DNA from: a virus
Reading direction: 5' to 3' (one strand)
DNA: 40,608 nt
IMG/VR virus record: IMGVR_UViG_3300037041_001261
Coordinates: 1-40,608 of that record
Shown here piece after piece: positions 2,774 to 21,317 of this stretch. How positions within the stretch are numbered: the stretch's first letter is position 1; every line of letters begins with the position of its first letter. The notes beneath the pieces are model-generated. The model searched no databases and had not been told where the DNA came from. It worked only from the letters and a program-made list of their open reading frames with translations. The position numbers were made by a program, and so were the translations under genes.

Positions 2774-3105
2774 CAGACCTCCACGAACAGGTTTCCCGTC
2801 ATGATGGTCTGGACGAGGCCTACATCTGTCGTGACACGGAGCTTATACCAGTATTTCCCTTGATTGAAAAGGCTGGTGTCGGCGGGGATGAGATTAACCG
2901 CCGTCTGTCCCAGAGCCGGGTCAGTATGCACGGTTATTGTCCTCGCTATGATATCATCCTCGGAATACATGTTTTCTTTTGCTGTGAACTCTACAATCCA
3001 ATCCGTGATATCCTCGGGCGTTCCGTCGTCGTTCAGGAACTCCATGTTCAAGGGTTCTGAGTCGCCCCTCGTTATTGTCAGGTCTATATTTCTGTCACCT
3101 TTCAC
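2773..3105 (-). CDS. Ig-like baseplate/fibre N-terminal domain protein (BppU_N-like)
   Basis: A 110-aa protein. The opening LTITRGDSEPLNMEFLNDDG followed by PEDITDW, and the later IPADTSLFNQGKYWYKLRV, match the pattern of the N-terminal beta-sandwich of phage upper-baseplate proteins (BppU_N-like): a strand, an RGD/S turn, 'DG..eDiT' and a closing 'G.Y.Y.v' strand. In that family the domain attaches receptor-binding fibres to the virion. The start is GTG at 3105, overlapping the stop of the giant gene as GTGA, with GGGGGTGAG just upstream; no ATG fits. It is the first of three genes after the giant gene and is followed directly by the GT-methyltransferase and the collagen-like fibre, so it may be an adaptor for that fibre. 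The fold assignment is by pattern only. Confidence 0.6.
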   Translation of the reverse strand: MKGDRNIDLTITRGDSEPLNMEFLNDDGTPEDITDWIVEFTAKENMYSEDDIIARTITVHTDPALGQTAVNLIPADTSLFNQGKYWYKLRVTTDVGLVQTIMTGNLFVEV

Positions 3106-6100
3106 CGCTCACCCCCGGCCTTTGTTTTATACCGTTCCTTGTTTCTTTCGGCCTTTGTCATGACCTCTCTGGAATTCTTTATCAAACTGCTCATCTTCAG
3201 CGGGGCCACTATTAATTGTACTCCACGGTCGCGTCGCATATCGTTGAAATTCTTGACATCTCCCAACACTTCTTTCATCGCCTCTTTGTCCTTATTATGC
3301 CGTGCTATGCGGAACTCGTCAAACACTTTCTCACGTTTCTCCCGGAAGAACTGTTCTATGTTCTGGACGTTCCGCTCATCTTCCATATTTTCGGCGTACC
3401 GGATGGGCTGAAAACCGGCGCCACGGGTGATTCCTTCTGATGCGGACAGCTTCATCGGTTTACCGTCCGGGCCTGGTATAAGTTTGCCGTGTGCCGTCGT
3501 GGCCGCGTCTGTTGTCATCCTTGCCGCCTTCATCATGGAGGCGATAAATTCCGGGGCCATTGACTCTGTGGCCCTTTCGAACTGTCCGGTTGATGCGTAC
3601 TTTCCGGCAAGGGCGACCTTCTTGACTATCCCGCCCACAGCACCCGTCACGGTATCGGATGGTGATTCTCCCACGAAGGGGACTCCCATTGCCAGGGAAC
3701 CAGTTACGCTGATACCGAGAAGGGTAGGAATCCCGTGGACTCCCATTCTCTCGAGCGTATTCCCGCCCACGGCCCGGAGCTGTTTCTTGACCGCCGCCAC
3801 AGGGTTGTACCCGGTCGTCTTGGTTATCAATTCTAGGATGTCTTTCAGGAACGGTAGGGCCAGAAGCCCGCCAAAGAGGAAGAGATAGGCCAGAGAGTGC
3901 GCCCAGACCTTCCAGTCCCCGGCTGTAATCATGGAGTTGACGTAGTTGTAGTTGAACGATTTAAACGTCATGAGGGTGTGGATGGACTGGCTGGTGATGT
4001 CGCCACCGGCCGCGTACCGGGGAAGGTTCTCCCGACCCATCATGTAGTGGGTGTTGTAAATGTATTCCTTGGCCTTTTCCATCGACAGTTGGTACCGTTT
4101 CTCTACGTTTGGTTCGTTCTTCAGGTGTTCCATATAGACCCTGAACATAGCCAGGCCCGCAGATTTCCTGTTGAATATTTCCATAGCCGAGAACGGCATA
4201 CCCAATATCTGAATAGTCCGGTTGTACTTCTCTCCGAGGACGCTCTGCATCCGGCCCTCAAGCTCTTTAATCCATTGGTCTTGTGCGACACCCTTTATCA
4301 GCATCTCCTGGATGAACCTTTTCTCGAGGTCACTAAGGTGGTCGCCTTTAATGGAGTAGTCCTTCTTGTTGACCTTGGACATTCCGATGTCCTTCATCGC
4401 AATGGAGTACAGCTTCTCCGCCGTGCCTACCTTTGCTATGCCCAACGCCCGCAATTCTTTCTGAAGGAATGGCATGCCGGTGACAAAGTTCTGTGTCAAC
4501 TGAAGGACAATGGGTCGAATGGAACCGGCCAGGTAATAGGTGAACATGAAGCTCCTTGCCACCGCCGATATCTTGTCGCCTTTGTCATAATTACGGAGCA
4601 TGTCCCGCATGTACGTTGACAAATCTTCATAGAGGGCATCGCTCTTCTTCGGCACATCCTTGAGCAAATCAAGGAACTCGTGGGCCGCTTCCTGTTTCGT
4701 GACCATACCTGTGAAGCCGGTGACGTAATCTTTAAGGACTCCCTGCAATCCGGTTTCCTTATACCCCATGATGTTCGGGGATTTCCTCTTGATACCGAAC
4801 CGGCCAAACCCGCGGGCCTTCAGTTCGTTGACGAGGTTGTTCAGAATCTCTTGCTTGATGACGTTCAGCTCGTTCTCTTTCAGGTCGTCCTTGGCCTTCA
4901 TCCGCTCGATGGCGTTGCCAAGAAGGCGTAGCATGTTCTCATCCCTGACGCCGTAGAACGTCGCATCCGCCGGTTTGGTTACCTTGTTCATATCGACGTT
5001 ATCCGCGCCGTATTCTTTAACGAGCCGGTCGTAGACCTGTTTTGATTCTACAAGGGAGGCGAACTGTTCGTTCCACACCTTGCGTTTCTTCGTCTTGCCG
5101 TTCTCGTCCATGTCCTCGACGAAAGCCTCGACGTAGTATTTGCCCTCGCGTACGTGCGGGAAGTAGGCTATCCATCTGCCCAGGGAGTTGCGTATCTTCC
5201 GTATCTGGCTCAGACCGTGGGCCATGAAGGAATATGCTGATATAATGTTATTGAAATATTCATTGACGATTGTGTCGTCTATTCCTGGTATCTCGCTCTT
5301 AATCCAGGCTTTCAGAAGTTCTTCATACTTTGTCCGGAGCTTCGGTTTACCCGCCGACCGGATGAACCCGATGAGATACTTCTGATTCACGCCCCCGTAC
5401 GCAACCTCGTTGAGAAGGTTGAACCACGGCTCGTTCTTATAAGGACGCAGGGTCATATCCAGAATGGACTTGAACCAATCCTTGTGGATGGTGTCAAGGG
5501 TAGACCTGACATGACGGTATGTGTCTATGTCCATCTCTGTCAGCTTGAACCGTTCCCTCAGTTCCTTGTCCCCGTATCCCCGGAGAAGCTCCAGCTCGTC
5601 GAGCTGTTCCTTTAGCTCGGCGGCCATCCCGTATTCCCCGGCCTTGAGTGCTTCCTTATACTGCTTCTTCAGGTCTTGTTTCCTCTGCGGAAGCTCGCGG
5701 TCGCCCTCGATGAAAGCCTTTTCCAGACGAGCAACCTTGTCGCCCTTCATAGACAGAAAGCTGTCAAGCGATGACAGGTATGCGTGGTTCTTTTCCTGTC
5801 GTGCCTCGACCCGGCGTTCCATAACGCCGACGGCCCTCTTCCAGAGGGTGCTACCTGACAGGGCTTTATAGAAGGGAAGGTAAAAGTATTTCTTGAACCA
5901 ACCGATGTTCTCACCGTTGGCGGCGACAGCCTTGTCCATCTGCTCCCGGTATTTCTTGTTGCCCTTATAGTCCGCGTACTGCTTGGCGGTATCTTTCATG
6001 CTCTGTATCATCTTGTTCGTTTCGTCGAGGAACCTCTGGATGTCCCCGGCCTCTTTGTCTGCCACTTTGTCTTTTATGGCGGGGATGTTCTTCCTCAGTT

Positions 6101-9100
6101 CTGAGAATAGGGGCATCATCTGGGGACGGACATCGCTGAAGTTCTCCCCCAACGCCCCCCGCATCTGTGCCGCCCAGTCCGCATAGGTCTGTCCGGTAAA
6201 GGCCCGCCTTCCAAGTTCCGTCAGGTAAGGCAAGGTCAGGATGGCGGAGTTACCCCGGTTCAGGGTTTCATTGACCCTGGCCACAAGGGTAGCAACCTCG
6301 AGGTTGTTCAGCTCTTCTTCTTTTCCGTCCCTGACAATGCTATCTCCCTTAGACCAGCCCAGAATTCCCTCGATTCCGGATTCTTGTCCTTCTTTGCGAA
6401 AATCTGAACTATAATCTTGGCGGCCGGTGTCATCGACTTCAAATTTTTCCAGGTCGTTTGCAATACTGTCGAATCTGTCTGAGAAGTTTTTAAAGACACT
6501 ATTAATCCTCCTTTCTAGTTTTCTGAACTCAAGTCCGCCAAACCGGGCCGCGAGGTTCGAGAACCGTATTCCCCATGCTTCACCGTGGCCCTGGATAATT
6601 CTCCCGCTTACAGAACCGGCCATATGGGCCAACTCGTGTATGAGAACCATGGCATACACAGACGACCGAATCTCGTCGTCCGTCAATGACCCGAACCCGT
6701 AGATGTCGTTGCTCTTTATGTCCTTTAAAAAGTTTGTCCCCATGCTGAACGGGTTGATGGCGACCCCGGATTTGATGCCGTACTTCGGGTCCATATTCGT
6801 GGTGTTGAACCCGTGTACCCCGGAGTCCAAGGTGAAGAACATCTCGGGAAGGTTCATCGAGGGGATAACCCTTTTTACCGTGGCATTAAACTCGTCAAAG
6901 ATGGTGGCAAGAGCGTCGAACACATCCTTGTTCCCGGTGACAAGAGCCATTACCTCATCATAGTGTTCCTTGAAAGGGACATGACACACGATGTCCATGT
7001 TCGGGCCGACAATGGGCGACCGCTGAAACTGTTCCCCCATCCTCGTGAACCGCTCATCCCTGTCATTCCTCAAACGTGCCGCAAGGTCTTGCCCTATGCT
7101 GTCCTTGAGAAGGTTCTGCCACTCTTCCGTAAGTTTGGTGCGGTTGTCACGGAGCGGATAGTTGGCTGTATCCTGGGAGGCCACCGTCTGTTTGAAGTTG
7201 ACTGACACCACAAAGTCGGGCTGTTTGTCCGACAGGAACTGAAGTTCGTTTGTCATGACGTTGGGAAGCTGGAGTCCCTTTATAAAGAACCGGGTTCTTA
7301 TCCGGTAGGCCTCGTTCTGGGGTGAACCGTATTTGTTAACCGGTTTATACTTGACCTCAACGATGTTTCCTTTGCCGTCGTCAAGAGTCGTGGTGTTGTA
7401 TTTGCTCTGGACATCAGTCCAGCCTTCCGTTCTAATATACCTGGCGTTGGAATTGTTCATACGCATCATTTTAAAACCGTCTATATGAAAGTTGTCCTCG
7501 TAATCGTCTTTCATGGCGGTGTGTATGTTGTATCCTGTTTCGCTCTGTCCTTGCCACGCAGGATAAAGCACGTCGGCGGGATTGGTTGATTCCTCTATAA
7601 AATAAAGGGCAATCCTTGTCCCCCCGTCGATGTCGGTCGTACCAGAGATAAAGTCGTCATAATAGTAAAGCGCGTCGCCTTGTGTTTCAAAGTGTTCCTT
7701 AGAACGGTTCATAAGGTCTACGGCCTCGGCCATAAAACCTGGGTTTTTGGTTTTCCTAACTGTCACATCCGGGCCTTTATCTCCACTACCCTTTATTGGA
7801 ATATCTTCCGGGGCCATGTTGATGCTTGATATTATCCCATCAGGGGTAGGGGAACCGTCAGATTCGCTTGTTTCCCTGGCAATCTCTTTTGCCGACATCC
7901 CCGCGTCACGGAGTTGTTTCTCCCTCTTTGCCCGGTCAAAGACCGTATCTATTCTGATATAGTTGGCCCCATTCACGATGGCCACATTGGCCTTCCCGAA
8001 CCCTCCAATATCTGCGGCCCCCTTGTTGGTGCCAGATATCTTCAACAGTTTGCTAGAAATATCTTCCGGCCCCATCCCGTGTCCATTATCGTAGAAAACA
8101 ACCTTGCTAACTGTTTTGGCATTACCAAATACGTCCGGTCGTTCGGCTTGTAAACGGTCAAACTCGGGATTACCACTTGTTAGGGTGTTTAGAGAGGTTA
8201 AGAATATCCTGTCCTTCTGTCCTCTTGTGGCATCAATAGAATTCTGGAGGATTTCGTTGAGGATGGTTCCCGACGGGTTGTCGTTGGTAAGGTCTTTTCT
8301 CTCGTTCCTTAACCAATCTTTTATTTCCATGCTTCTTTCTACTTTGTAGACCTTCTTCTTGTCCAGCGGGTCGTATGCGTCCTCGCGGAGCATCATGTCG
8401 ATACCCAGGGCGTATGCCTCCTGGCCGAACCACAAGCCTTGCTTCAGGGTTTCTTTCATGTTCCGGCGCAGGGTTGTCTGCTGGCTCTTCGACAGCCTTT
8501 CCCCCATCGTCCACATTGTTTCCGTACCGCCCGACTTGGACATGGTGAAGGCATCCGATAGTATCCGGTTGATAAAGAGGTCTGTGGCGTTACGGTGAAC
8601 AAGGTCGGCCCTCTGGTCGCCAAAGGTGTCCCGGTTGATATTGATGTTAAGGTACGCCTCTGTAGCGCCGTTCGCCCTCGCATGCCCCCGGATGTAGTTG
8701 ACCATCTTATCCTTGTCCTCGAGCATGGATATCGGGATGTCATGGACTGCCCTGACGGTGCCGCGAATGTCTACGAACACGACAATCCCCTTGTTCTCCC
8801 GGTTGTTTGCCGTGCGGAAGGCATTGAGAAGCCCGTCTTGACTATAAAATACCCCGTTCCTCAGGTCGGCCAGACTCCCGTATTCCGTTTCCCCGGTCTT
8901 GTCTATCGAGGATTGAATGAGGGGGTCTATGTCGTGGAACTTGAAGGAGTGTTTGAAATCCTGTTTGCCTATCCATCCCGTCATCTTCTTTCCCTTGTAG
9001 CTCTTGGGAATCTTGGACATGTCCTTGCCCGGCACGAATGTGTATTCGTTGCTGTCGATGATGTATGCCCCGTTATAGGTTATGTCGGGATAGGCCTGGG

Positions 9101-12100
9101 AGAGTTGGTTAAGCCTTTGGTCCATCCGCATGTCAGCTTCGGAGGCGTCGGCATGTCCTGACGGGTGGTTGTGCATCTGGTAGAAACCGTCCGCTCCAGC
9201 CGCCCTCATCCTTTTGATGACTTCTTCGAACTGCCGTACTTCTACGTTAAGGGCCGGAGTACAGTTCGGCACATACGAGGTAAGGGTTTCCATACCAAGC
9301 ACTTGCGTCCGTCCATCCGGTAAGGACTTCGTGTAGATGAACCGTGCCGATTCATACTGCGGGTTCCTGAAGGGCTGGGACATTCCAACAAGCTCTTCTA
9401 TGGAGTTGAAGGTCTTGCCGTTCATGGTGTAATACCCGCTCTGTATCATGTTGGCCGTGATGGCCCGGTAGACCTCGATAATTTCCGGGGTCACGCCCTC
9501 TATAGCAAAGAGCCTTCCCATGTCATCGACAACCACATCAGCGGCGAACTGGGCCTCGTTCTTGGTCATGTACGGGTTGTAATAGTTTATCGCCGCCCGC
9601 ATGAGGGCCGCATCACTATATGTTATGGCCTCATCAAGGGCGTGTCCGGCGGCCTCTTCGCTGACAAAAGAATCACCGTCAGGGTTGAACCCTATAGCCT
9701 GGTCGATGTCCGTACCGTACTGTATCCGGCGTAGGGTTTCCAGTTTCCTCTGGAGGATGACCCCACGTTTGTAATCGCTGAAGGCCTCGTCGGCCCGGTA
9801 AAATACGACTGTTGCCGGGGACTTCGAGTTCCGTCTGCTGACCCGCCCAATCGTCTGGTCGAACTGGTCGCCAGCATAGTTCAGGGTTGCAACAAGCATG
9901 ATGCGTGGCTCGTTCCCTACCTGGTCGTCGAGGCTTATGCCAACGCCACCGGAGGCCGGGGTCATTAAGGCCACCCTGCAATTCGGGTCATTCTGAAAGC
10001 TGTCTACCGCAGATGATTTGTCGCCCTTCCCGTATATCTTTGCATGAGGGATGTTGAGCGATTCCATCTTTTTGGACAATAACGGCAACAACTGGTCACG
10101 GGTAACGGGTGCATAGATGACAGCCGTAGGTATCCGCTCGGGAGATAACCCGGCAAGATGTGCAACGTCGGCGCCTTCGGCCACGATAACAATCTTCGGT
10201 CTCTTGCCGTCTGCCCGCGGGGCCAACTCTTTTTGTATCCTTTCCCAGATGACATTGAACTTGGCGTGTTCCGCCCGGTAGGTGTTCTCTCGGAGTTGTC
10301 CGTTCACCGGGTTCTTATACTTAAATGGTTTGCCGTCCTCGCCTATCCAGTTGTTAAGGCCGAAAGCCTCGTCAATCAGGTCTATCTCTGCCTTGTCCTC
10401 GGGAGCAAGTATGACCGCCTCGTTCTCGATGGTTCCATAGAAAGGATACTCCCGACGTATCATGGAACCCTGGGATATTGCCGCGTTCCTCAAGGCTATA
10501 ATGTTGTCCCAGACCTTGGGCCAGGTCATCCCGGCATTGAGGACGGCGAACTTCTTTATCTTGCCGTCCGCGTCTGGGAGAGCCGAAACCGTGTATCCCA
10601 GCATCTTCTCCACTTCTTTTTCGGTAAGGCCCGTTATCTGTGAAAGGTAATAGGTCGCGCCGGTAGGCTTATCCATCGGGGTAGCCGTGGCAAAGACAGA
10701 GTAGTCAGCGTTTATCCCGTCAAAGAGATTTGACCGTTTTGATTCCACGTTCTTGAGCCGGTGAGATTCATCAGCTATCCGGGCCGCAAAGACCGTGTTC
10801 GCAAGGTCAATAGGTATGAGTTGGTTTGCTGTGGTCTTGGCCTTCTCGTTCCGCTTCCTCTGTTTCTCTGCGTCCGAAAGGCCGGATATGGATTCTTCAA
10901 AGTTGTGCTTGGACAGCAACCCGTCGTATGTCACCAACAGGATGTTGGTCTGCGGAAGATTCATTGCCTTCAGTTCTTTTTCAAAGAATCCCTGGACTAG
11001 CTTGTTGGGGGTTACGATAAGAACGGGGCCGGGAAAGTTTCTGGTTCCTGGGCCACCAGCCTTGGCCGCCTCTTCAGCCCTATCTGCCAGCATGCGGGCG
11101 GCCACCAGAAGCTCTCTGGTCTTGCCTACGCCGGTGCCATCAGCAAGGAGGAAGGCTTTGCCGCCATTCTCCTGGCTCCTTCCTATGAGGTTTATCGCTA
11201 TTTTTTGGTAGTCGTCAACGGCGTTTTCAAGGCCGGGATACTTTGCATAAGTTTCCACCGGTCTGGCTTTTGGAATACTTCCGCCTCCAGGGATGATAAT
11301 TCCAGGTCGCCCTTTATTACCTTTTCCTCCAGTTGTTCCAGGAATGGTCTGTCCGCTTCCAGTACCCTTGGAAAATCTTTCATATGCTTGCCTCCATATG
11401 TCCGGCCCATACTTGCTTAAAGCCTGATTAAATATAGCACCGTATTTGCCGGTTTTCAAGGCCATCTCCAGCTTTGGATAGCTGTTTATTACGGGATTGT
11501 CAGTAATAAGTTTGGCTACAAGTTTATCGAGGGTCGCAAGGTTCTCCGGGGAGGGCTGGACATATTCCTCGACGCCCATGACCCTGCTTCTGTTTACCTC
11601 TTCCTTGGAAATAGCCTCTCCCAGCATGTCTGTCCCTTCCGGCTGTATCGGGGTATCGTTGTCCTCGAGAACGAATACATCGTCGGTTGTGACATTCTCG
11701 TTGGCCTTTATCTGCCCAAAGGTTTCTTTGTTTTGTATCTGGTCTAGGAGTCCTTCTTTTTCCAGAACAAGGTAGTGTCGGGTCGTGTCGTCAAGTTCCT
11801 CGATACCCTGTTGTAATTCCGAATCAATCTCGTCAATTCTATTAAGCGTTGCCGAAACGAAGTCGTCCCATTCTCTCTCGGCTGTCAGAGCCTCTTCCGA
11901 CATAAGGTCATACCCGGATTCCGCTTCCGCTTCCGCCTCTGTAATGTTCTGTTCTATCTGTTCAATGGTTACGGCCTGTTTTTCTTTCATCCCTTTTACA
12001 ATGGTATCGAAAAGGTACTGTGCCACATCACCCTGATAGCTGGGGGGCGCGGGAGGAATATACTTCTGTTCTATTAAGATGTTTGCCATCTCCTCCATAT

Positions 12101-15100
12101 CGTGCGCTCTGGCCGGGTCGTTGACGGTGATGTAACTCGCGAGGTTCCTTCTCTCACCTCTAACGTTTTTAAACCCTAGTTCTGCTGGATAGTTGTTTTC
12201 TTCTTCCTTTGTCCCATATCCTGTCTGCGGGTCCCAGACGGAAGGACGCAAACCGCCCAGCGATTTTATTATGGTGCTGAGCTTCCTTGGCGGTTTCTGT
12301 TTTTCCTTTATACTCCCCGCCTGGAGCATGGCCGTCATGTAGCTTTCCATGACCTTGTTGCGGAGATGGTCGCCACGGAGCAGTTCATCAAAGGGCAAGA
12401 ACTGGACAGTCAAGGTATCTGACCCCTTGCTGTATGTCATGATGTACCGTCCGCCCGGTGTTTCCAATGTCCTGTTGTCCGGAAGCATAAGCCAGTATTC
12501 CCAGTTCCCGTTCTGATTATAGGCAAGGGACGTTACGACACCAGATTCACTTCTCGACCATGTGATGTTGTCTTTCCTTCCTGTCCGGTCGGTAATATTA
12601 AACTGTCCCTGGAAAAAGCTGGAATCGTGGACGCGGGCAATACCAGAGGTGTTGTTGCGGGTCAACCAGTTCTTTGCCTTGGTTATCTGTTTGGCTATAC
12701 CAGATGCTGTCATTGTGGCGGCGCCGGTGATGGAATCGTAACTCCACTTCCCGGTAGAGATTATGTGGGCAAGTTCCTGGCCTCCGACATACGTCCCCAA
12801 GGTCTTTTCTATCAGTTCGTTGGAATCGAAGATGGCCGGTGCGGCCCCAACGGTTTCCGTCTTGCTCGTCTGGGGGAGTCCCAGGTCGGGCAGATTGAAA
12901 AGAACTTTGATTGCCTGGAGGTATGACCGCTCTCTCCCGGTGCCTTTGATGTTCTCGAGGAAGAAGTCCCGTACCGCGGACTCCCTGAGAACCTTAATAG
13001 GATGCTGGCTCGGTAACGTGAACGGGACGTTATCCAAAGACCCTACGACCTGGATGTCGTTGCCCATTTTGATAGGGGCTTGATTTAGGCCGATATCTTT
13101 TGTGGCTATCCTTGCCCCGCTCAACTTTCCTTGTGTCGTCATCACCGGATGTCCGGTCTTGCCAAAATCCACCCCGGTAAGGGATTTCAATGTCACGGTC
13201 TGAGCCGCTGGTGCAAGAAGGTTCCGGGCGGCCATTTTTTCCGCACCCTTTCCAGTTGCTCCATCTCTCTTTGCGGCGGCCACGGCATCTTCCCACTCGC
13301 TCAGTTTCGGCATCAACGCCTTGCGTTCGGCAAAGGCCAACGGCTGGGGCTGTGTCTGTAGGGCGTTCTCAATACTCTGTATGGCCTTCACCATCTCCGG
13401 GTTTATTTCATACCGGTTCTCTTTCACATTCTTGACCACAAAGTTGTTCTTGATAAGCTCTACCATCGTTCCGGACGGCAAGAAGTTCGCCCTTGCAACA
13501 GCCGGTGTCACGATGTTTTCCAGTTTTCTTATCTGCTCGAGGGCCGGGCCTATTGTCTTATACAGTTTGTCGGCGGCCCTCTGTAGTTCTCTTAATGATT
13601 GGCGAGATACAAAGTCGGAACCCTTTTGCTTGTCGGCCTCTTTCATAATTCCGGCCAGTTCCTCATAGGTGTCGTTGACCCTCTGCCTGAGGTCTGTTAG
13701 TTCGCCTATCACCCGTTTGTATTCTTGCTGGGAGAAACGAACCCTTTCTATCTTCTCGCGCTCTTCCGGGGTCTGTTTCGTTTCCAAGAAGTGGGAGCCA
13801 TGTCCCTCTTGCTGTGTGAGGCGTGTCCTTGAGGATGACGGAACGGTGGATGCAGGGACTATCTCGACCTTATCCATGCCAAGTACGCCCCGCATTAATT
13901 TAATCATGCTTGTCGACGCATCGTTGATAACCTTGGCTACACCGTAGAAACCCTTCTTTGCCCCTCTTTCCGTAGCACCATGCAGGGCTATCGGTGGTGT
14001 TCCAGCAGTAATCTGTCGGTGTTCTCCTACTGCTCTTGCCACGGCTTGCTGTTGCGGTATGCCAGAACTGAGGAGCTTCATGGTCATGTCGACAACCTTG
14101 TCAATGTCTGTCCGTGATGCCATCTTCGGTTTGACGACAGCAACAGCCATGTTAACACCCGGCATGGGTATCGCGGTGTTCATCTCCTTTGTCACGATGC
14201 CCCGGATTTTCGCTATATCCTTGACCCGGCGATGTACCTCGGCACCAAGTTGTGGGGCGGTCAGGGTTGTGGCTATGCCCTTGACTGCGGCTCGGCCTTT
14301 TGTCGGAGGAGTCCCTTCGGTTGCCTCCACTCCTGGTCGGCTCAGTATCGGGCCTTCTATGGCACTCGTTGCCTTCTCGGGCATCGGTATCGCTTCCGGG
14401 CCAAGTTTCGCCTGTCCTACTGTCGGAGCCACATAGTCTGAGGTCGTCAGCTTCTTGTTCTGGGCAACGTCGCTTATCAAACCGTCCAGGGCTGTCTTTG
14501 CAGAAGCCTCGTCGGAAAACCTACCGGTCTTTTGGTCGTATCCCGCGGTGTCCGGGCTGAAGCGGATAAGCTGGGTGGCCTCTACCTCTTTCGTCATGCC
14601 GGTTGTTTCATCGACAAACTTATCGACAACAAGCTCACCCTTCTCGTCGAACTTCTTTCCCCAAATAGAAAAGCCCCCAGAAGGGCCAGGTGAAAGCGTG
14701 AAGAGGTTCCCCGCCTCGGTTTTCTTGGCCTTCACGGCCTCGATTTCGGCAAGGATTTCTTCCGGGGACGACTTGAGGGCATCACCGGGTACTCCGGTAT
14801 TGAGCCATGCCTGGGTGTTGCGGACTATCTCGTCGCTCTGGGACTGTAACCTTTGCTCTGCCTTTGTCTTGGCCTTATAATTATTATTACGGGCGAGAGC
14901 CACCGCACTACCTGTCGTCCAGTCAATCTCTCCCAGCTCTTTTTCTATGTCTGCGGAAAGACCGTCGGTCGGCCAGATACCGCGTTTCTCCATCTCCACT
15001 TGCATCTTTCCCATGGCGGTTGCAAGTCCGACGTCATCGGGAAGAACCTTCTGAACCCTTACCGCATTTGAATATGCCGATATAAGGTCGTCAGGGTTAA

Positions 15101-16184
15101 GGACGGTATGCCCGTTCAGTTCTACGGCCTTCTGAATATCGCGCGACCAGTTCTTGTTCTCCTGTTTCTCGGCCCACTTTACAACGGGGTGCATCGACGG
15201 CCCCATCACTCCGGCCATCGTTACCGAGGAAATGGCCGTATCTTTTAATTCTCCAAGGAGTTCTCCCCAGGTAAGTTTGGGATTAGTTGTCGCTGTGTTT
15301 ATTATCCCCGACTCGATGAGGGTGGCAAGTTGTTCGCCAGGAGCATCCGTAAGAGCGGCCATGAGGGTTCTTTTCCCCAGGCTGTGTTTCGGGTTTACGA
15401 GAGCTTCGAGCGGGAGTTTCTCTGTCCAGTATTCAGTAAAGGTGTTCGTTAGGAACGCCGCTATGGATGTTGCCGGGTCGAATCCGGCCTCTCTTTTCTC
15501 GGCGTAGTCTTGCCCGCCTGATTCAAGGGCCATGGGAAGGAGAGGTTTGAACTTACCTTTTGTCAATATGGAAGCGGCGATGAGGGGTATCATCTGCCCC
15601 ATGCTCTGGAACCCGCTTGCCATCCCGGCCTCGATTGTTCCCGGTGTCAGTTCCGGCATCATCGCTTTAGTGAGGGCTTTACCTTTCTCCCCTATCCATT
15701 TGCCCGCGAACGCTGGTTCTAGGCCCAGACCTTTTTCAACATCGGAGATGCTGGTGTCAAGAAACCCTGGGACTTCCCGGCTCATTATATCGTCTGAGGC
15801 GGCGTCAAAGATTTTCTTTATTGGGCCAAAGATATCGTACGGAAGCTCTTTCTCTGGGCCTTTTACGATATCATTTAGCGTCGCGTTCCCGGTAAGCAAG
15901 TCAAAGGCGTGTCCAAGGTATTTGGGAGAACTCAACGCCCAGCCTATGGCTTTAAGTGTCCCGGCGGCGAGGTTCTGCCCGGTCGTTTCTTCTATTGCCC
16001 TCGTGACACCGCCGACACCTTCTACCGTACCACCGACACCACCAGCCTGAAGAGCCTGAACCAATTTCAACGGGGTCTTTAAAGAAAGTCCTCCGACTGA
16101 ACCGTCGTCTACTTCGTCCCAAACAGACTTCGGGGCGGCGGGTGCGCCAACTCCGGTTGCTTCGTCATCCCAAACATTAGCCAC
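3102..16184 (-). CDS. Giant 4360-aa polyvalent virion protein: helicase, JAB, GHKL ATPase, metallopeptidase
   Basis: A single open frame of 13 kb. The start is GTG at 16184 with AAGGGGGGG upstream, 13 bases after the preceding gene. Domains by approximate residue: 1-340, duplicated VWD motifs and amphipathic helices; 820-1050, coiled-coil-rich; 1300-1400, a helical domain with IIKSLGGL of the kind found in large polyvalent proteins; 1560-1640, a Gly/Pro-rich linker; 1640-2170, SF2 helicase of Strawberry-notch type (Walker A ADGTGVGKT 1681-1689, DESH 1805-1808, FATATP, QTIGRVSRR from 2110); 2279-2390, JAB/RadC-like (HNHPSG 2338-2343); about 2620-2900, GHKL ATPase (NEILQNSIDA 2643-2652, DNGHGM from 2699, GGFGKA from 2727); 3183-3205, HELAH with HGE (SprT-like zincin); 3400-4360, helical with YFPHVREGKYY near 3675 and a hydrophobic segment from 4094. 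It lies beside probable internal virion proteins, so it is likely ejected into the host. All catalytic roles are inferred from motifs. Confidence 0.9.
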   Translation of the reverse strand: MANVWDDEATGVGAPAAPKSVWDEVDDGSVGGLSLKTPLKLVQALQAGGVGGTVEGVGGVTRAIEETTGQNLAAGTLKAIGWALSSPKYLGHAFDLLTGNATLNDIVKGPEKELPYDIFGPIKKIFDAASDDIMSREVPGFLDTSISDVEKGLGLEPAFAGKWIGEKGKALTKAMMPELTPGTIEAGMASGFQSMGQMIPLIAASILTKGKFKPLLPMALESGGQDYAEKREAGFDPATSIAAFLTNTFTEYWTEKLPLEALVNPKHSLGKRTLMAALTDAPGEQLATLIESGIINTATTNPKLTWGELLGELKDTAISSVTMAGVMGPSMHPVVKWAEKQENKNWSRDIQKAVELNGHTVLNPDDLISAYSNAVRVQKVLPDDVGLATAMGKMQVEMEKRGIWPTDGLSADIEKELGEIDWTTGSAVALARNNNYKAKTKAEQRLQSQSDEIVRNTQAWLNTGVPGDALKSSPEEILAEIEAVKAKKTEAGNLFTLSPGPSGGFSIWGKKFDEKGELVVDKFVDETTGMTKEVEATQLIRFSPDTAGYDQKTGRFSDEASAKTALDGLISDVAQNKKLTTSDYVAPTVGQAKLGPEAIPMPEKATSAIEGPILSRPGVEATEGTPPTKGRAAVKGIATTLTAPQLGAEVHRRVKDIAKIRGIVTKEMNTAIPMPGVNMAVAVVKPKMASRTDIDKVVDMTMKLLSSGIPQQQAVARAVGEHRQITAGTPPIALHGATERGAKKGFYGVAKVINDASTSMIKLMRGVLGMDKVEIVPASTVPSSSRTRLTQQEGHGSHFLETKQTPEEREKIERVRFSQQEYKRVIGELTDLRQRVNDTYEELAGIMKEADKQKGSDFVSRQSLRELQRAADKLYKTIGPALEQIRKLENIVTPAVARANFLPSGTMVELIKNNFVVKNVKENRYEINPEMVKAIQSIENALQTQPQPLAFAERKALMPKLSEWEDAVAAAKRDGATGKGAEKMAARNLLAPAAQTVTLKSLTGVDFGKTGHPVMTTQGKLSGARIATKDIGLNQAPIKMGNDIQVVGSLDNVPFTLPSQHPIKVLRESAVRDFFLENIKGTGRERSYLQAIKVLFNLPDLGLPQTSKTETVGAAPAIFDSNELIEKTLGTYVGGQELAHIISTGKWSYDSITGAATMTASGIAKQITKAKNWLTRNNTSGIARVHDSSFFQGQFNITDRTGRKDNITWSRSESGVVTSLAYNQNGNWEYWLMLPDNRTLETPGGRYIMTYSKGSDTLTVQFLPFDELLRGDHLRNKVMESYMTAMLQAGSIKEKQKPPRKLSTIIKSLGGLRPSVWDPQTGYGTKEEENNYPAELGFKNVRGERRNLASYITVNDPARAHDMEEMANILIEQKYIPPAPPSYQGDVAQYLFDTIVKGMKEKQAVTIEQIEQNITEAEAEAESGYDLMSEEALTAEREWDDFVSATLNRIDEIDSELQQGIEELDDTTRHYLVLEKEGLLDQIQNKETFGQIKANENVTTDDVFVLEDNDTPIQPEGTDMLGEAISKEEVNRSRVMGVEEYVQPSPENLATLDKLVAKLITDNPVINSYPKLEMALKTGKYGAIFNQALSKYGPDIWRQAYERFSKGTGSGQTIPGTTGGKGNKGRPGIIIPGGGSIPKARPVETYAKYPGLENAVDDYQKIAINLIGRSQENGGKAFLLADGTGVGKTRELLVAARMLADRAEEAAKAGGPGTRNFPGPVLIVTPNKLVQGFFEKELKAMNLPQTNILLVTYDGLLSKHNFEESISGLSDAEKQRKRNEKAKTTANQLIPIDLANTVFAARIADESHRLKNVESKRSNLFDGINADYSVFATATPMDKPTGATYYLSQITGLTEKEVEKMLGYTVSALPDADGKIKKFAVLNAGMTWPKVWDNIIALRNAAISQGSMIRREYPFYGTIENEAVILAPEDKAEIDLIDEAFGLNNWIGEDGKPFKYKNPVNGQLRENTYRAEHAKFNVIWERIQKELAPRADGKRPKIVIVAEGADVAHLAGLSPERIPTAVIYAPVTRDQLLPLLSKKMESLNIPHAKIYGKGDKSSAVDSFQNDPNCRVALMTPASGGVGISLDDQVGNEPRIMLVATLNYAGDQFDQTIGRVSRRNSKSPATVVFYRADEAFSDYKRGVILQRKLETLRRIQYGTDIDQAIGFNPDGDSFVSEEAAGHALDEAITYSDAALMRAAINYYNPYMTKNEAQFAADVVVDDMGRLFAIEGVTPEIIEVYRAITANMIQSGYYTMNGKTFNSIEELVGMSQPFRNPQYESARFIYTKSLPDGRTQVLGMETLTSYVPNCTPALNVEVRQFEEVIKRMRAAGADGFYQMHNHPSGHADASEADMRMDQRLNQLSQAYPDITYNGAYIIDSNEYTFVPGKDMSKIPKSYKGKKMTGWIGKQDFKHSFKFHDIDPLIQSSIDKTGETEYGSLADLRNGVFYSQDGLLNAFRTANNRENKGIVVFVDIRGTVRAVHDIPISMLEDKDKMVNYIRGHARANGATEAYLNININRDTFGDQRADLVHRNATDLFINRILSDAFTMSKSGGTETMWTMGERLSKSQQTTLRRNMKETLKQGLWFGQEAYALGIDMMLREDAYDPLDKKKVYKVERSMEIKDWLRNERKDLTNDNPSGTILNEILQNSIDATRGQKDRIFLTSLNTLTSGNPEFDRLQAERPDVFGNAKTVSKVVFYDNGHGMGPEDISSKLLKISGTNKGAADIGGFGKANVAIVNGANYIRIDTVFDRAKREKQLRDAGMSAKEIARETSESDGSPTPDGIISSINMAPEDIPIKGSGDKGPDVTVRKTKNPGFMAEAVDLMNRSKEHFETQGDALYYYDDFISGTTDIDGGTRIALYFIEESTNPADVLYPAWQGQSETGYNIHTAMKDDYEDNFHIDGFKMMRMNNSNARYIRTEGWTDVQSKYNTTTLDDGKGNIVEVKYKPVNKYGSPQNEAYRIRTRFFIKGLQLPNVMTNELQFLSDKQPDFVVSVNFKQTVASQDTANYPLRDNRTKLTEEWQNLLKDSIGQDLAARLRNDRDERFTRMGEQFQRSPIVGPNMDIVCHVPFKEHYDEVMALVTGNKDVFDALATIFDEFNATVKRVIPSMNLPEMFFTLDSGVHGFNTTNMDPKYGIKSGVAINPFSMGTNFLKDIKSNDIYGFGSLTDDEIRSSVYAMVLIHELAHMAGSVSGRIIQGHGEAWGIRFSNLAARFGGLEFRKLERRINSVFKNFSDRFDSIANDLEKFEVDDTGRQDYSSDFRKEGQESGIEGILGWSKGDSIVRDGKEEELNNLEVATLVARVNETLNRGNSAILTLPYLTELGRRAFTGQTYADWAAQMRGALGENFSDVRPQMMPLFSELRKNIPAIKDKVADKEAGDIQRFLDETNKMIQSMKDTAKQYADYKGNKKYREQMDKAVAANGENIGWFKKYFYLPFYKALSGSTLWKRAVGVMERRVEARQEKNHAYLSSLDSFLSMKGDKVARLEKAFIEGDRELPQRKQDLKKQYKEALKAGEYGMAAELKEQLDELELLRGYGDKELRERFKLTEMDIDTYRHVRSTLDTIHKDWFKSILDMTLRPYKNEPWFNLLNEVAYGGVNQKYLIGFIRSAGKPKLRTKYEELLKAWIKSEIPGIDDTIVNEYFNNIISAYSFMAHGLSQIRKIRNSLGRWIAYFPHVREGKYYVEAFVEDMDENGKTKKRKVWNEQFASLVESKQVYDRLVKEYGADNVDMNKVTKPADATFYGVRDENMLRLLGNAIERMKAKDDLKENELNVIKQEILNNLVNELKARGFGRFGIKRKSPNIMGYKETGLQGVLKDYVTGFTGMVTKQEAAHEFLDLLKDVPKKSDALYEDLSTYMRDMLRNYDKGDKISAVARSFMFTYYLAGSIRPIVLQLTQNFVTGMPFLQKELRALGIAKVGTAEKLYSIAMKDIGMSKVNKKDYSIKGDHLSDLEKRFIQEMLIKGVAQDQWIKELEGRMQSVLGEKYNRTIQILGMPFSAMEIFNRKSAGLAMFRVYMEHLKNEPNVEKRYQLSMEKAKEYIYNTHYMMGRENLPRYAAGGDITSQSIHTLMTFKSFNYNYVNSMITAGDWKVWAHSLAYLFLFGGLLALPFLKDILELITKTTGYNPVAAVKKQLRAVGGNTLERMGVHGIPTLLGISVTGSLAMGVPFVGESPSDTVTGAVGGIVKKVALAGKYASTGQFERATESMAPEFIASMMKAARMTTDAATTAHGKLIPGPDGKPMKLSASEGITRGAGFQPIRYAENMEDERNVQNIEQFFREKREKVFDEFRIARHNKDKEAMKEVLGDVKNFNDMRRDRGVQLIVAPLKMSSLIKNSREVMTKAERNKERYKTKAGGER

Positions 16185-16197
16185 TATTTACCCCCCC

Positions 16198-17301
16198 TTA
16201 CCAGGTGAACCCGTCTTTCTTGGCCGCCGCCATGCCCTTCTCTTTACTGCCGTATTGCTTCGTGTAGGCCTTCGCCTGTTCCGCAGATAAGGTCTTTCCC
16301 TGAATGGCTCCACCGGCCTTTGACTTGTTCTGGCGATAATCAGAAATCATTGTGTGAAGTCTATCCATATCCGGTTTGGCATCAGGGTCATTCGGGTCAC
16401 CTCCAGCCATTTTCAACATGGCCGTGTAAAGAGGTGAGGGGATATCGTCAAACGCCTTTGCCTTGTATCCGTAGTAATCGGCCATCGCCTTTTTAGACGC
16501 TATCTCTGCCGGTGTTTCCAATGCCTTTTGTTCGGCGTTTGATTTCGCCGCCCCGGCGGTCATCAACGCGGCCTGACCACCCGGCATATTCGGCCCGTGA
16601 ATATCGAGAGCCGACCTTTCCATGGTGCCTTGTGCGCCAAGGGAGGTGGTCGGCATTACCTTTTCTAACAAGCCCAAAAGGCCTGTCATAACGCTTTTGT
16701 TTTTAACCATATCAATGGTCGAGGATGACCCGGAATAATCCGACACCGCCCGCTGGAACTTTGTAATAAGGTCGTCCGCTAGGCGGTCTGCCGAGCCTCT
16801 GTTTACGCCGGAAGGTGTCGTGTTTGTCGGTGTTTCCGGAGCGTTATCGTTAATAGACGACATTACCCCGCCCCGCATGGAAACCGAACTAGGTTTAGCT
16901 CCTGGGTCTGAATAACTCCAACTCTCACCCGTAGGCGTCGGGGCCGGAGATACCATTGTTGCCGGTTTACTGCCCGGAACTCCCAGGCCCGCAGAGGGTA
17001 TCGGGGTAGGGGTAGGGGTAGTGGTAGTTATATTTGGGGGGGCTGTCGTTCCATTGGTGGGAATTGAAGCCGCCGCCTGAGGAATCGTCGGGGTGGCCGG
17101 ATAGGTGAGTCCATACGCATCATTCGCAAATTGGTCTATCGGTGCGCTGGCAACTTTCCCTCCGCCTATAATGTCTGTTTTGACACCATAAGGGTTTGTC
17201 CCTTCAGAGGCTAAAGCCGATGACGTATAAGGGTCAAAGGGTTTCGCCCCCCGTTGCGATGGCCCCACTACGGCCTGTATAAAATCATCTATTAAACCCA
17301 T
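16198..17301 (-). CDS. Pro/Thr-rich probable internal virion protein
   Basis: A 367-aa protein. I place the start at ATG 17301 (MGLIDDFIQAVVG) because GGGAGGGG lies just upstream. The open frame extends further up, but that part overlaps the preceding gene and reads as its shadow. Residues 1-30 are helical. A long low-complexity part follows, with Pro/Thr/Ser/Gly runs (TTTTPTPTPIP), and residues from about 175 are helical and alanine-rich, with a lysine-rich end (YTKQYGSKEKGMAAAKKDGF). There are no catalytic motifs. It sits 14 bases after the coiled-coil protein and 13 bases before the giant gene. Proteins of this kind next to a giant polyvalent gene in short-tailed phages are usually internal (ejection) proteins. 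That role is inferred; no family is recognised. Confidence 0.7.
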   Translation of the reverse strand: MGLIDDFIQAVVGPSQRGAKPFDPYTSSALASEGTNPYGVKTDIIGGGKVASAPIDQFANDAYGLTYPATPTIPQAAASIPTNGTTAPPNITTTTPTPTPIPSAGLGVPGSKPATMVSPAPTPTGESWSYSDPGAKPSSVSMRGGVMSSINDNAPETPTNTTPSGVNRGSADRLADDLITKFQRAVSDYSGSSSTIDMVKNKSVMTGLLGLLEKVMPTTSLGAQGTMERSALDIHGPNMPGGQAALMTAGAAKSNAEQKALETPAEIASKKAMADYYGYKAKAFDDIPSPLYTAMLKMAGGDPNDPDAKPDMDRLHTMISDYRQNKSKAGGAIQGKTLSAEQAKAYTKQYGSKEKGMAAAKKDGFTW

Positions 17302-17315
17302 ATCCCCTCCCTTTT

Positions 17316-18818
17316 TTACATTGTTGCAGAAAACTGTTCCGACACGGAGCCAGATGCTTGTGCATGCGCCCCTGCCGTCATTGAAGCCAAAGCTCCGGCG
17401 GCTATTGTCGAGGCTATCTGTCCGCCATGTCCAGCGGCGGCGGAAAGTATCTGCGCCTTTTGAGCATAATACCGCAACAAAGCATCGTACTGTTTCAAAT
17501 AAAGTTCGGCCTGATGCGCCGCGCTCGTTACCCTCGCGTCTAGGAGTTTTATATTGACATCGTTGACCGATGCCCACGCCCCCGTGTAAGCCTTGAACCC
17601 GTCAATTTGGGCATTGAACCTTCCTATGATAGCATTATTCTTAGCAATGTATGTGTCTATTGTCAGTTTAAAAGCCTCAAGGTTTGCTTTCTTCACATCG
17701 ACCTGGGCCATGACTCCCTGTATCTGTGTCTTATACAGGTCAAACATCGTGGATATTCCCTGGAGTTGGCCTATATAGAGTTTTACCACGGAGTCGTTCA
17801 TGTCGACAACCATCTTCGCGGCCTCGACCTGTGTTTTATATGTTTCCGCCTTAAACTGTTCGGCCTGTAACCGGCCCTTGAACGCCTCTACCTGTACCCG
17901 AAATGCCTCGACCTCGGTCTGATACTTCGACGCCTCAATCTTGAACACCTCTACAGCGGCGTCCGCAACGGCCTTTGACAACGCAAAGGCTCGGTTGGCG
18001 TTCTTATCAAGCCAGTCCATCCATAAGGATTCTGCCTTTATCCCAGACTCTACCGCGAACTTGATATTATCCTGTTCCAGTTTCGCCTGGTCTATTGCGA
18101 TGTCCCGTGAACGGTCTATCATCCGGTTCGCATAATCCATGTGCATCTTCTGGAGGTTCTCCGCAAGAACACCGTCGGGAAGTGTAAGTCCGCGTTTCGT
18201 CCAATCGTCCATGAACTTGGTAATCTCATCTTCCATAACAAGGGCGTCGCGTTCCTGGTCGCGTGTCCAGATGGCGGTTTCTATCTCGGGCAACAACCCG
18301 GTGCCACCGTTCACGATATCGTTAAGGAGTTTTGCCTCGATAGCGTGAAAGAGTTCCGCGTCGTACAATGCCTCACCGCCCTCGATGTTAATGACCGGGA
18401 CGTTGATGTTCTCGATGGGTGTTACCGCATCGAACTCCACCTCGTTATATGATGGAGCGTCGGGCAGGGTCACCTCTTTGAGAAGCCCGTTCGCATAATC
18501 TGGAACCGTAGGCAAAGTGTACGAAGGTTCAACTGGCATGTTGGGTTCGACAAAAGACGGCGGGTTCGACGGTTCCGCCGGAAAGGCTGGTGTCCCCGGA
18601 AGATAGTTCAATAATGACGCCGCCGATGGAACAGGAATGTCCGCATAAGGAATTGAAATGTAAGGGGCGGAAGGCATGGGAAAATCAACGTTGTGGAGGT
18701 CATCAAGGAACGCCATAGCGTTTCCGTACCCCCCCATTGCAAAGCTGGAGGCAAAATGGAACTTACTTGCTACTAGACTGGTTACCCAATCAAGCATTGC
18801 GGTGGCGGATGCTGGCAT
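17316..18818 (-). CDS. Alanine-rich coiled-coil probable internal virion protein
   Basis: A 500-aa protein with start ATG at 18818 and AAAGGGGG upstream. Residues 1-130 are Pro/Ala-rich with repeated short motifs (PYADIPVPSA, PAFPAEPSNPPSF, MPVEPSYTLPTVPDY). Residues about 160-460 are one long heptad-rich helix (KYQTEVEAFRVQVEAF, QAEQFKAETYKTQVEAA), so a trimeric or larger coiled coil is likely. The last 50 residues are small and hydrophobic (GGQIASTIAAGALASM), like a membrane-active segment. This architecture suits an ejection or internal core protein. It lies between a 70-aa protein and the Pro/Thr-rich protein. A tail fibre shaft is an alternative. Confidence 0.7.
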   Translation of the reverse strand: MPASATAMLDWVTSLVASKFHFASSFAMGGYGNAMAFLDDLHNVDFPMPSAPYISIPYADIPVPSAASLLNYLPGTPAFPAEPSNPPSFVEPNMPVEPSYTLPTVPDYANGLLKEVTLPDAPSYNEVEFDAVTPIENINVPVINIEGGEALYDAELFHAIEAKLLNDIVNGGTGLLPEIETAIWTRDQERDALVMEDEITKFMDDWTKRGLTLPDGVLAENLQKMHMDYANRMIDRSRDIAIDQAKLEQDNIKFAVESGIKAESLWMDWLDKNANRAFALSKAVADAAVEVFKIEASKYQTEVEAFRVQVEAFKGRLQAEQFKAETYKTQVEAAKMVVDMNDSVVKLYIGQLQGISTMFDLYKTQIQGVMAQVDVKKANLEAFKLTIDTYIAKNNAIIGRFNAQIDGFKAYTGAWASVNDVNIKLLDARVTSAAHQAELYLKQYDALLRYYAQKAQILSAAAGHGGQIASTIAAGALASMTAGAHAQASGSVSEQFSATM

Positions 18819-19055: not shown

Positions 19056-21317
19056 CTAAGTAACGTTTCCCGCGGTGAACGGGTTATCTCTCTGGGTAAA
19101 CCCATATATTGGTGTGATAGTGTTCATAAACATTGGGCTGTCCGGAAGATGTTTTTGAATGGTTGTTTCTATTGTTGCCGTTCCTTCTTCATTTCTCTTC
19201 TCCCTCACAAGTACATGTACCGTCCACTCATCCTCTCCATTGTTTAGATATATACACGCCGTTGCCACCTTCTCTACGTCGAGGGGCGCATCGTCCCATT
19301 GAGTCCTGAAGTTTCCTCCTCCTCCCTTTGTAAAATCCGACTCATCACCCCCCCCCACCTCGGTAAGTATGTACTCCTGTTCAAGCGAGGGATAAGCGTT
19401 CATAGATACAATCTGGATGGTGGCTTCTTCAGTTATTAAGTCGGTTTCCCAAGATATATCCCCAGGAGTCGCCCACCCTTTAGGCCTATTGAAAGTTACA
19501 TAACCCTCCCTCGACTGAAGAACAAATCTTCCCGCGGGCGTAAGAACCACATCGCTTATTTTAATATCGTAGTAATATTCTAACCATACTTCCTCATACA
19601 TATCCTGTCCATTATACAAGTGTATATCGTTTATAGTTGCATGGTCAAAGTCTACCCCACCTTGAACAATGTACGGGTTAACAAATATTGTGCTCTCTAA
19701 CTCATATATTTCGTTATTCTGTTCGCAGGAAAATTCTACCTCTCTAATACAATTAATCCAAATGTCGGGGTCGTTGGACACCAAAGTGCCTGGGCTTTTG
19801 AATTGACCTTCGAAAACTCCTGTTCCTATTATATAGCTACCAGAAGCTATCGAAGGAAAGGACAACCAATTTAGTATACTGCCTATTCCCCAATATGACA
19901 CCTCTGGAAACGATGTCAGAAACATCCATGGCAAATCTTGGGCCAGGTTGTCACCACGGTAAGCAAGTAATGGTTGCACAAAAACCCCGGAGATGTTAAT
20001 TTCCGTTTCAGCAAACCTTTCATATTCTTCCTCCCCATACCCCTCGTTTCCATAAAATGACGAGGCGTTCCACCAGCTAAACCGGGTTTCTGTTGCGTTA
20101 TCATCCACCGTATAATACAAAGAAAAACTATAATCATAGTCTAGAAATTCCCATCTGGTATCGCTAATAAGAACAATCTCTCCATCTGCGGAACGGTTTT
20201 CTTCGCCCTCGCTTTCTCCGACCCACCAAAGGTTGTAGTATAGAACGTCGTCCACTACCCAATACTCCGTACCTCCGTCGGCTATAAGAATATAATAATA
20301 ATCTGAATAAATGTAAGACCCTCCGCGGCCGTACCAGTCCCAATACCAACCCTCAACATTCGTGTCGACGGAGAGTTCCCCTTCCTCGTCTAATCCAAGG
20401 ATGGGATAATAGTTCGTGAACTCGTCGCTGTGACTTTCACTCCAATCATACCACCAATCATATACATCATATCTGACGTTACTGAAAGGCGGGTCATAAA
20501 AAGAAGAATTATTTTCGCCAGAATAAACAACGCTCTCCGTCGGACCATCTCTGTAAATTTCGTCTGGATATAATGAATACTCAAGGTGGCTATGGTAAGG
20601 GTTAAGGGCGTTGACAAGATTCCATTTTCTCTTCCCCTCGTCCGATTTTGTGAGAAGCACACCCACGCCCGCCACCACATCATCTGGCCGACTAAACCCA
20701 AACAAAATCGTGCTTTTATTATCTTCCTTATACTCCTTTACGCCAAGGTCGTTATCAAAGACATAGTATGTTACTTCGTTGGCCTCCTTCCTGAGTGACT
20801 CTTCGTCTATCGGATACCAGGCCAAAGCATCTCTATCGCCATCATCAAATTTAATTTTAACCCTTGTAAACTCTTCTTCCAACTGTCGGGGGTCCAGTCC
20901 CCAGTCGTTTGAATCGCTCCAGTAATACCAATAGTAGTCCTCGCCCCAGGCCACACTCTCCGTGTATACTTCCCCTTCCATAGAATAGAGTTTGGTTTGC
21001 CTCCACCAATCGGCGTAATCTGGGTTAGAATCGTCGTCAATAACAAGCTGTATGTTGTCAACTATTGCGTTACGGGTAATAAATTTTCCATTTAGTTTTT
21101 TGGATTTATCCCCCCCAGTAAGCTCTACGTTAGCAATAAAAACTCCATCGCTTAATTTAGACAACCTGATGGTCATGTTTTTATCCCTATATGACTGGTT
21201 GTAAAGTCCGCTTGCTTCCAAAGATATTTGCATCCTCCTTATATGACCGTGCATAGCATCTCTGGCCTTTGGGCTGTTTAACATTTCCGTACTGCCTTTT
21301 AACTGATATGATATCAT
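19056..21317 (-). CDS. Trp/Tyr/Asp-rich 753-aa virion surface protein, unknown family
   Basis: The start is ATG at 21317, overlapping the stop of the preceding gene as ATGA. The composition is extraordinary: residues about 115-460 are crowded with Trp, Tyr, Asp and Glu (DYYWYYWSDSNDW, YDVYDWWYDW, YSDYYYILIADGG), with few basic residues. The pattern of alternating aromatics and turns implies a beta-rich, very acidic fold, perhaps carbohydrate-binding. Residues 1-100 and 560-753 are more ordinary (ISDVVLTPAGRFVLQ, ATIETTIQKHLPDSP). The DNA here also looks richer in A+T and codon choice looser than in the neighbours. Its place between the 801-aa fibre-like protein and the internal proteins suggests a tail or surface protein. 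The function is not recognised. Confidence 0.75.
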   Translation of the reverse strand: MISYQLKGSTEMLNSPKARDAMHGHIRRMQISLEASGLYNQSYRDKNMTIRLSKLSDGVFIANVELTGGDKSKKLNGKFITRNAIVDNIQLVIDDDSNPDYADWWRQTKLYSMEGEVYTESVAWGEDYYWYYWSDSNDWGLDPRQLEEEFTRVKIKFDDGDRDALAWYPIDEESLRKEANEVTYYVFDNDLGVKEYKEDNKSTILFGFSRPDDVVAGVGVLLTKSDEGKRKWNLVNALNPYHSHLEYSLYPDEIYRDGPTESVVYSGENNSSFYDPPFSNVRYDVYDWWYDWSESHSDEFTNYYPILGLDEEGELSVDTNVEGWYWDWYGRGGSYIYSDYYYILIADGGTEYWVVDDVLYYNLWWVGESEGEENRSADGEIVLISDTRWEFLDYDYSFSLYYTVDDNATETRFSWWNASSFYGNEGYGEEEYERFAETEINISGVFVQPLLAYRGDNLAQDLPWMFLTSFPEVSYWGIGSILNWLSFPSIASGSYIIGTGVFEGQFKSPGTLVSNDPDIWINCIREVEFSCEQNNEIYELESTIFVNPYIVQGGVDFDHATINDIHLYNGQDMYEEVWLEYYYDIKISDVVLTPAGRFVLQSREGYVTFNRPKGWATPGDISWETDLITEEATIQIVSMNAYPSLEQEYILTEVGGGDESDFTKGGGGNFRTQWDDAPLDVEKVATACIYLNNGEDEWTVHVLVREKRNEEGTATIETTIQKHLPDSPMFMNTITPIYGFTQRDNPFTAGNVT

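Follow-up and report, generated by a model that had tools for sequence, protein, structure and literature searches.

A giant, cysteine-poor candidate ejection protein of a metagenomic phage joins shared end modules to an unusual set of putative enzymatic domains

The window analysed here is the whole of IMG/VR virus record IMGVR_UViG_3300037041_001261 (40,608 bases), a linear metagenomic virus contig that may be incomplete. A single gene of 4360 codons, which begins with GTG and contains no internal stop when the open reading frames of the record are read, occupies 32% of the record (Table 1), in agreement with the earlier note, which had described one intact 13-kb frame filling about a third of the window. 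A run of seven G lies just upstream of the GTG, with a purine-rich ribosome site, and base composition, inspected as a check for assembly error, is even along the gene. On the same strand (minus), the order of genes is TerL (32686-34080), a portal/head-tail adaptor, the capsid protein (28446-29426), connector and tail proteins, two candidate ejection proteins, and the giant, which is followed by a tail-fibre-assembly-like gene, a methyltransferase-like gene, and a collagen-like fibre gene cut by the contig end. The giant thus lies downstream of the TerL, portal, capsid, and tail genes, the late virion-gene setting expected of polyvalent proteins (Iyer et al. 2017), and the two candidate internal proteins that had been noted beside it are indeed encoded directly upstream. 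Both are cysteine-free, and together with the giant they form a consecutive set that ends the virion block, as is typical of podovirus ejection proteins. The head-tail adaptor and capsid families, along with synteny with BPP-1 and VvAW1, identify the phage as a podovirus.

Several features of the neighbourhood are recorded for completeness. The ORF directly upstream of the giant is listed as 16198-17577 (-), which makes its 5' end run into the neighbouring gene; translation probably begins at the ATG at 17301, which is preceded by AAAAAAGGGAGGGGAT. A short way downstream of the giant, a gene of 422 aa (1505-2773, -) matches Methyltransf_11 (3e-12) in the C-terminal half of its product, a match that is not to a DNA methylase family; the N-terminal half has no assignment. 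The truncated fibre (2-1489, -) carries collagen-like G-x-y repeats, and two ORFs of ~100 aa near the capsid gene (27082-27384 and 27396-27704, both -) match the same collagen-like tail-fibre families. A Trp/Tyr-rich protein of 753 aa with no family match (19056-21317, -) is encoded in the part of the record with the lowest GC content.

Table 1. Coordinates of the giant gene, its predicted modules, and the two genes upstream (window positions; residues are those of the giant).
Feature	Position	Strand	Basis
Giant polyvalent protein gene, 4360 aa	3102..16184	-	Single open frame, GTG start, ribosome site, 3 Cys
N-terminal module, residues 173-326	15207..15668	-	Common to giants of BPP-1, VvAW1, Jess A, Skulduggery, Mel-JY34, G005
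SF2/SNF2-class helicase-like module, residues 1655-2140	9765..11222	-	SNF2-rel_dom, ResIII, phrog_62
RadC-like JAB domain, residues 2241-2384	9033..9464	-	RadC profile and JAMM motif
GHKL-like ATPase core, residues 2640-2760	7905..8267	-	HATPase_c_3 below cut-off; N-G1-G2 motifs
SprT-like zincin active site (putative), residues 3176-3212	6549..6659	-	HELAH at 3183, HGEAW; SprT-like profile below cut-off
C-terminal PLxRFG module, residues 3537-4341	3162..5576	-	NF032893 and independent profile
Candidate ejection protein, 367 aa, 0 Cys	16198..17301	-	Directly upstream of giant
Candidate ejection protein, 500 aa, 0 Cys	17316..18818	-	phrog_10969 (5e-57); homologue at same place in G011

Judged by sequence comparison, the parts that identify the giant are its N-terminal module and its C-terminal PLxRFG module; the earlier note saw the cargo domains between them and missed both shared ends. 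Residues 159-357 match gp01 of VvAW1, and parts of this stretch match Bbp10 of BPP-1 and a giant of a Caulobacter phage. An iterated profile of the N-terminal module, seeded from the window protein (first-pass single-sequence phmmer E values of 2e-21 to 4e-5), detects giants with different cargo at E values of 1e-21 to 2e-64, among them that of G005, a relative of the window phage, as well as four giants from viral contigs, including one that is a copy of BPP-1; it has no match among reversed sequences. At the other end, residues 3673-4324 match the NCBIfam model NF032893 'PLxRFG domain' ('tail-700') with 183 bits (E 9e-54, model positions 2-652 of 681) against a curated NCBI cut-off of 100 bits. 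When 13 other C-termini were combined into a profile that excluded the window protein, it recovered the whole module at 2e-40 (model 4-759 of 784) and did not match reversed controls. A weak HEPN_Apea match at residues 3601-3658 falls below the cut-off, and AlphaFold models of both ends were too poor to use (mean pLDDT 37 for the N-terminal and 49 for the C-terminal module).

By these matches, the chain has a BPP-1-type front, a PLxRFG-type back, and a middle of its own. The PLxRFG giants of Pseudomonas phages F116, H66, and 8P, Klebsiella phage LASTA, and Pseudoalteromonas phage Y7 resemble the window giant in their C-terminal 800 residues, size, and loss of cysteine, and they too are placed after small cysteine-free proteins. 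F116 divides its giant between two neighbouring genes, of 2129 and 1649 aa (L041:7015-18376). Bbp10 and gp01 share the N-terminal module of ~155 residues and the place after internal virion proteins but, unlike the window giant, do not match the PLxRFG profile, and their cargo differs (LPD22 and PBECR1 in Bbp10; a methylase-helicase and LPD38 in gp01). Since one such C-terminal module is matched by 69 phage records, the PLxRFG giants are an already known and well represented class, and novelty is to be sought in the cargo rather than in the giant itself.

Between the N-terminal module and the helicase-like module, residues 360-1640 or so carry no domain assignment. Two cargo domains are recognized by profiles over their cut-offs. 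The helicase-like module carries the motifs GTGVGKT (at about residue 1683), ADESH, ATATP, and QTIGRVSRRN; in slices of the protein it matches SNF2-rel_dom at 3.5e-8, above the Pfam cut-off, and ResIII at 4.7e-6. It belongs with the DNA helicases of phrog_62 (7e-28), and a PDB sequence search returned solely generic SNF2 remodellers and similar helicases. The earlier description as Strawberry-notch-like is not supported by profile: AAA_34 had no match in one scan and, on slices, only a 17-residue Walker-A match (E 0.022). The RadC-like JAB domain proposed at the same time is borne out by a Pfam RadC match of 2.6e-7 (31 bits versus a cut-off of 22.1) and an intact JAMM motif (HNHPSGHADASEAD at residue 2338); it is 32-33% identical over about 146 residues to the JAB domain of another PLxRFG giant (L089).

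The remaining two are recognized mainly by motifs. The segments EILQNSIDA, DNGHGM, and GGFGKAN supply the N, G1, and G2 motifs of a GHKL ATPase in order (residues 2644-2730), and HATPase_c_3 matches the best slice at 2e-4 with 21.8 bits, short of its curated cut-off of 25; a PDB sequence search with this region found nothing. It is thus described here as GHKL-like on motif grounds. Likewise, HELAH and HGEAW are both present in the putative zincin, and the SprT-like profile matches a slice at 2.8e-3 with 17.9 bits against a curated cut-off of 25.6. When the giant was shuffled 2000 times, the GHKL and SF2 motif sets never arose (0/2000 each), and those of JAMM and zincin arose once each (1/2000). 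The GHKL ATPase and SprT-like peptidase of the earlier note thus stand as complete motif sets and fall short at the level of curated profiles. A resemblance to rIIA of T4, a GHKL counter-defence protein, was considered and rejected, as 94 of 500 shuffles score as well. With the SNF2 and RadC domains over cut-off and the GHKL and SprT regions indicated by motif and sub-cut-off profile, several unrelated activities appear to be combined in one chain, which upholds the reading of the gene product as a phage-type polyvalent protein. Disparate enzymatic domains in one chain and a late-gene context are also the features described for polyvalent proteins by Iyer et al. 2017 (PMC5512222).

The unusual part of this payload was sought among 42 giant ORFs, of which three have the JAMM motif and 32 have HExxH. 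The three with JAMM are the window protein, L054, and L089, and Pfam assigns each of these domains to RadC. The GHKL motifs, and an HExxH followed by the SprT-type HG..[FWY], are found in the window protein only. The JAB domains of the other two giants lie at L089:2376-2978 and L054:11393-12055. The cargo of the sampled PLxRFG giants is mostly methylase-helicase, other zincins, or unknown, with neither a GHKL domain nor a SprT-type zincin, unlike that of the window giant. Pfam HATPase_c_3 had no match in 19 other records, a BLAST search with the JAB-GHKL-SprT region found nothing at 0.01 among 50,697 phage records, and against plasmids the same region gave three weak single-domain matches. Back-translated patterns, a method that reaches close relatives only, detected no relatives of the giant, its GHKL and SprT regions, or the upstream protein in viral contigs, and none of the GHKL or helicase-JAB regions in genome contigs. 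In the 2017 survey of polyvalent proteins, RadC is listed only in proteins of conjugative elements, and GHKL is absent from the main text (PMC5512222). From the comparison of giant ORFs and this survey, RadC in phage-type giants appears to be a modest extension of what is known, and the GHKL-like and SprT-like payload appears new as far as searched, with remote homologues escaping such searches. The suggestion that the order helicase-JAB-GHKL-zincin may be new agrees with this result, the combination having been seen nowhere else in the data searched.

An annotation that points in another direction is the PHROG 'DarB-like antirestriction', which matches the C-terminus of the giant at 2e-14. 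A protein of the DarB type would methylate DNA as it enters, travelling along it by means of a linked SNF2 motor, and so protect it against type I restriction; the dyad of methylase and helicase is common in giants with a PLxRFG C-terminus, and the window giant does have an SNF2-class motor. However, the label comes through the C-terminal module alone. A profile of the dyad built from four giants finds DarB of P1 (2e-69) and the giants of JC1 and LASTA, yet misses the window giant even at E 10, and no [NDS]PP[YFW] motif occurs in its 4360 residues. Without the dyad of adenine methylase and SNF2 motor, a DarB-like identity of the giant is largely refuted, and antirestriction of this kind is very improbable.

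The amino acid composition of the giant bears on where it acts. Only three cysteines are present in 4360 residues, whereas 37 would be expected from the other proteins of the window (66 in 7814 aa), a depletion of about 12-fold (P=8e-13). All three (at 2069, 2308, and 3067) lie within the cargo, leaving the 2740 residues of the ends with none, and the two proteins upstream have no cysteine in 867 residues (P=6e-4). Across the surveyed giants (L002-L007, L028, L030, L036, L041-L049, and L051-L095), 40 dereplicated large ORFs of related loci contain 10 cysteines in 130,256 residues, 35 of them having none at all; the split gene of F116 (4 in 2129) was left out of this count. The depletion exceeds 100-fold, as other ORFs of the same loci have 11.6 cysteines per 1000, although this control includes some spurious ORFs, which makes the typed genes, with about 8 per 1000, a more reliable reference. 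Cysteine alone shifts strongly, no other amino acid differing beyond about two-fold, and the three cysteines of the window giant are more than most of its class possess. The last genes before the giant are also mostly cysteine-free in VvAW1, BPP-1, JC1, LASTA, 1F273_PE002, and Skulduggery, and those of JC1 include proteins detected in virions (PMC9144972). As a positive control, the ejected proteins of T7, P22, and N4 contain 2 cysteines in 7952 residues versus 122 in 15,219 for the other proteins (p=6e-20). DarB of P1, a contractile-tail phage, has 9 in 2255. The lack of cysteine in N4-type polymerases has been noted and tied to cell entry via the tail and periplasm (PMC2784036, PMC3715699); no statement on its absence in the PLxRFG or related giants was found in the open-access literature.

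This composition weighs against the view that the giant is an ordinary internal or structural component retained in the virion, or serves packaging or replication in the producing cell, its enzymes acting late and not on entry. The gene does sit among late genes, and its SNF2, GHKL, and RadC domains would suit a task in either process. Yet a late enzyme of the cytoplasm has no evident reason to lose its cysteines, and the selective loss is common to ejected proteins that cross the envelope and is not seen in portal, tail, or replication proteins from the phages concerned, which makes such a role unlikely. Ejection, in contrast, is very probable, supported as it is by position, family membership, and the extreme depletion of cysteine. 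The order of small cysteine-free virion proteins followed by a giant recurs in VvAW1, BPP-1, LASTA, JC1, Skulduggery, and G011, and mass spectrometry of virions has detected a related but different giant, gp69 of JC1, through 51 unique peptides (PMC9144972); the C-terminus of gp69 is of another type (LPD38, not PLxRFG).

The virion RNA polymerase of N4 offers a likeness, with no claim of sequence similarity: it is a giant, cysteine-free protein with hydrophobic ends and an enzyme in mid-chain (PMC12633501), as here, and differs from the window giant in carrying an RNA polymerase as its cargo. Most of the strongly hydrophobic segments of the giants and the N4 polymerase fall within the first sixth or the last third of the chain; in the window giant the hydropathy threshold is passed only by C-terminal segments, its own N-terminal module having none above it. 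The published topologies of T7 gp16 (PMC8954989) and the N4 polymerase (PMC12633501) likewise have hydrophobic segments near the ends. From the resemblance to the N4 polymerase in the placement of these segments, we infer that the ends could serve as a delivery chassis with the enzymatic centre on the cytoplasmic side.

In the ejection model, the giant would come last in a podovirus set of ejection proteins and be its largest member, with the cargo enzymes carried between the N-terminal and PLxRFG modules. It would be packaged in the head and leave through the tail largely unfolded, as suggested by the model for the N4 polymerase and by the near absence of cysteine, and would then span the envelope like T7 gp16 or the N4 polymerase, presenting its cargo at the cytoplasmic mouth where the DNA enters. 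There, the SNF2-class motor may move on the incoming double-stranded DNA, the GHKL-like ATPase may serve as a clamp or switch on DNA, the RadC-like JAB domain may process nucleic acid, and the SprT-like zincin may strip host proteins from the DNA or cleave the chain into functional parts. Taken as a whole, with packaging, ejection, topology, and the activities and targets of the cargo all inferred steps, an ejected protein that uses its ends to bring exchangeable cargo into the cytoplasm, in this case a payload for handling DNA, is the probable reading; a DNA-protecting or DNA-handling role, deduced from the families of the domains, has about even chances of being correct.

The zincin might instead mainly process the giant itself, releasing helicase, JAB, and GHKL fragments at packaging or ejection, a proposal that is compatible with ejection and departs from the main explanation only in the job given to the zincin. 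Iyer and co-workers proposed that zincins of polyvalent proteins process their own chain and predicted this for DdrB of P1 (PMC5512222), and the presence of HExxH in most of the giant ORFs is in keeping with such a function. However, the window zincin is SprT-like, a type unlike all others in that set, and the N4 polymerase has such a domain yet is packaged uncut (PMC5512222), so that self-processing as the main function is possible but rather doubtful.

A wider proposal, offered tentatively and at somewhat less than even chances, regards these giants as a general delivery chassis in which selection for passage through the envelope keeps the entire chain free of thiols; the window giant would carry an undescribed SNF2-RadC-GHKL-SprT payload that escorts the genome, and its three cysteines, all in the cargo, would mark a recent capture of that payload. 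For annotation, the phrog_10089 match (3105-5597) covers the C-terminal module alone, and giants without any methylase can therefore receive the 'DarB-like antirestriction' label; caution is needed wherever a shared C-terminus may carry it onto such proteins. For the biology of the family, a single pair of end modules is joined to very different enzymes across related phages, which makes the ends testable as a chassis for protein delivery, and the class gains a GHKL-like ATPase and a SprT-like zincin among its payloads. In three classical podoviruses, ejected virion proteins can be told from non-ejected ones by their cysteine content, which also singles out about 40 giants; what was once remarked of the N4 polymerase thus becomes a simple means of predicting unknown ejection proteins.
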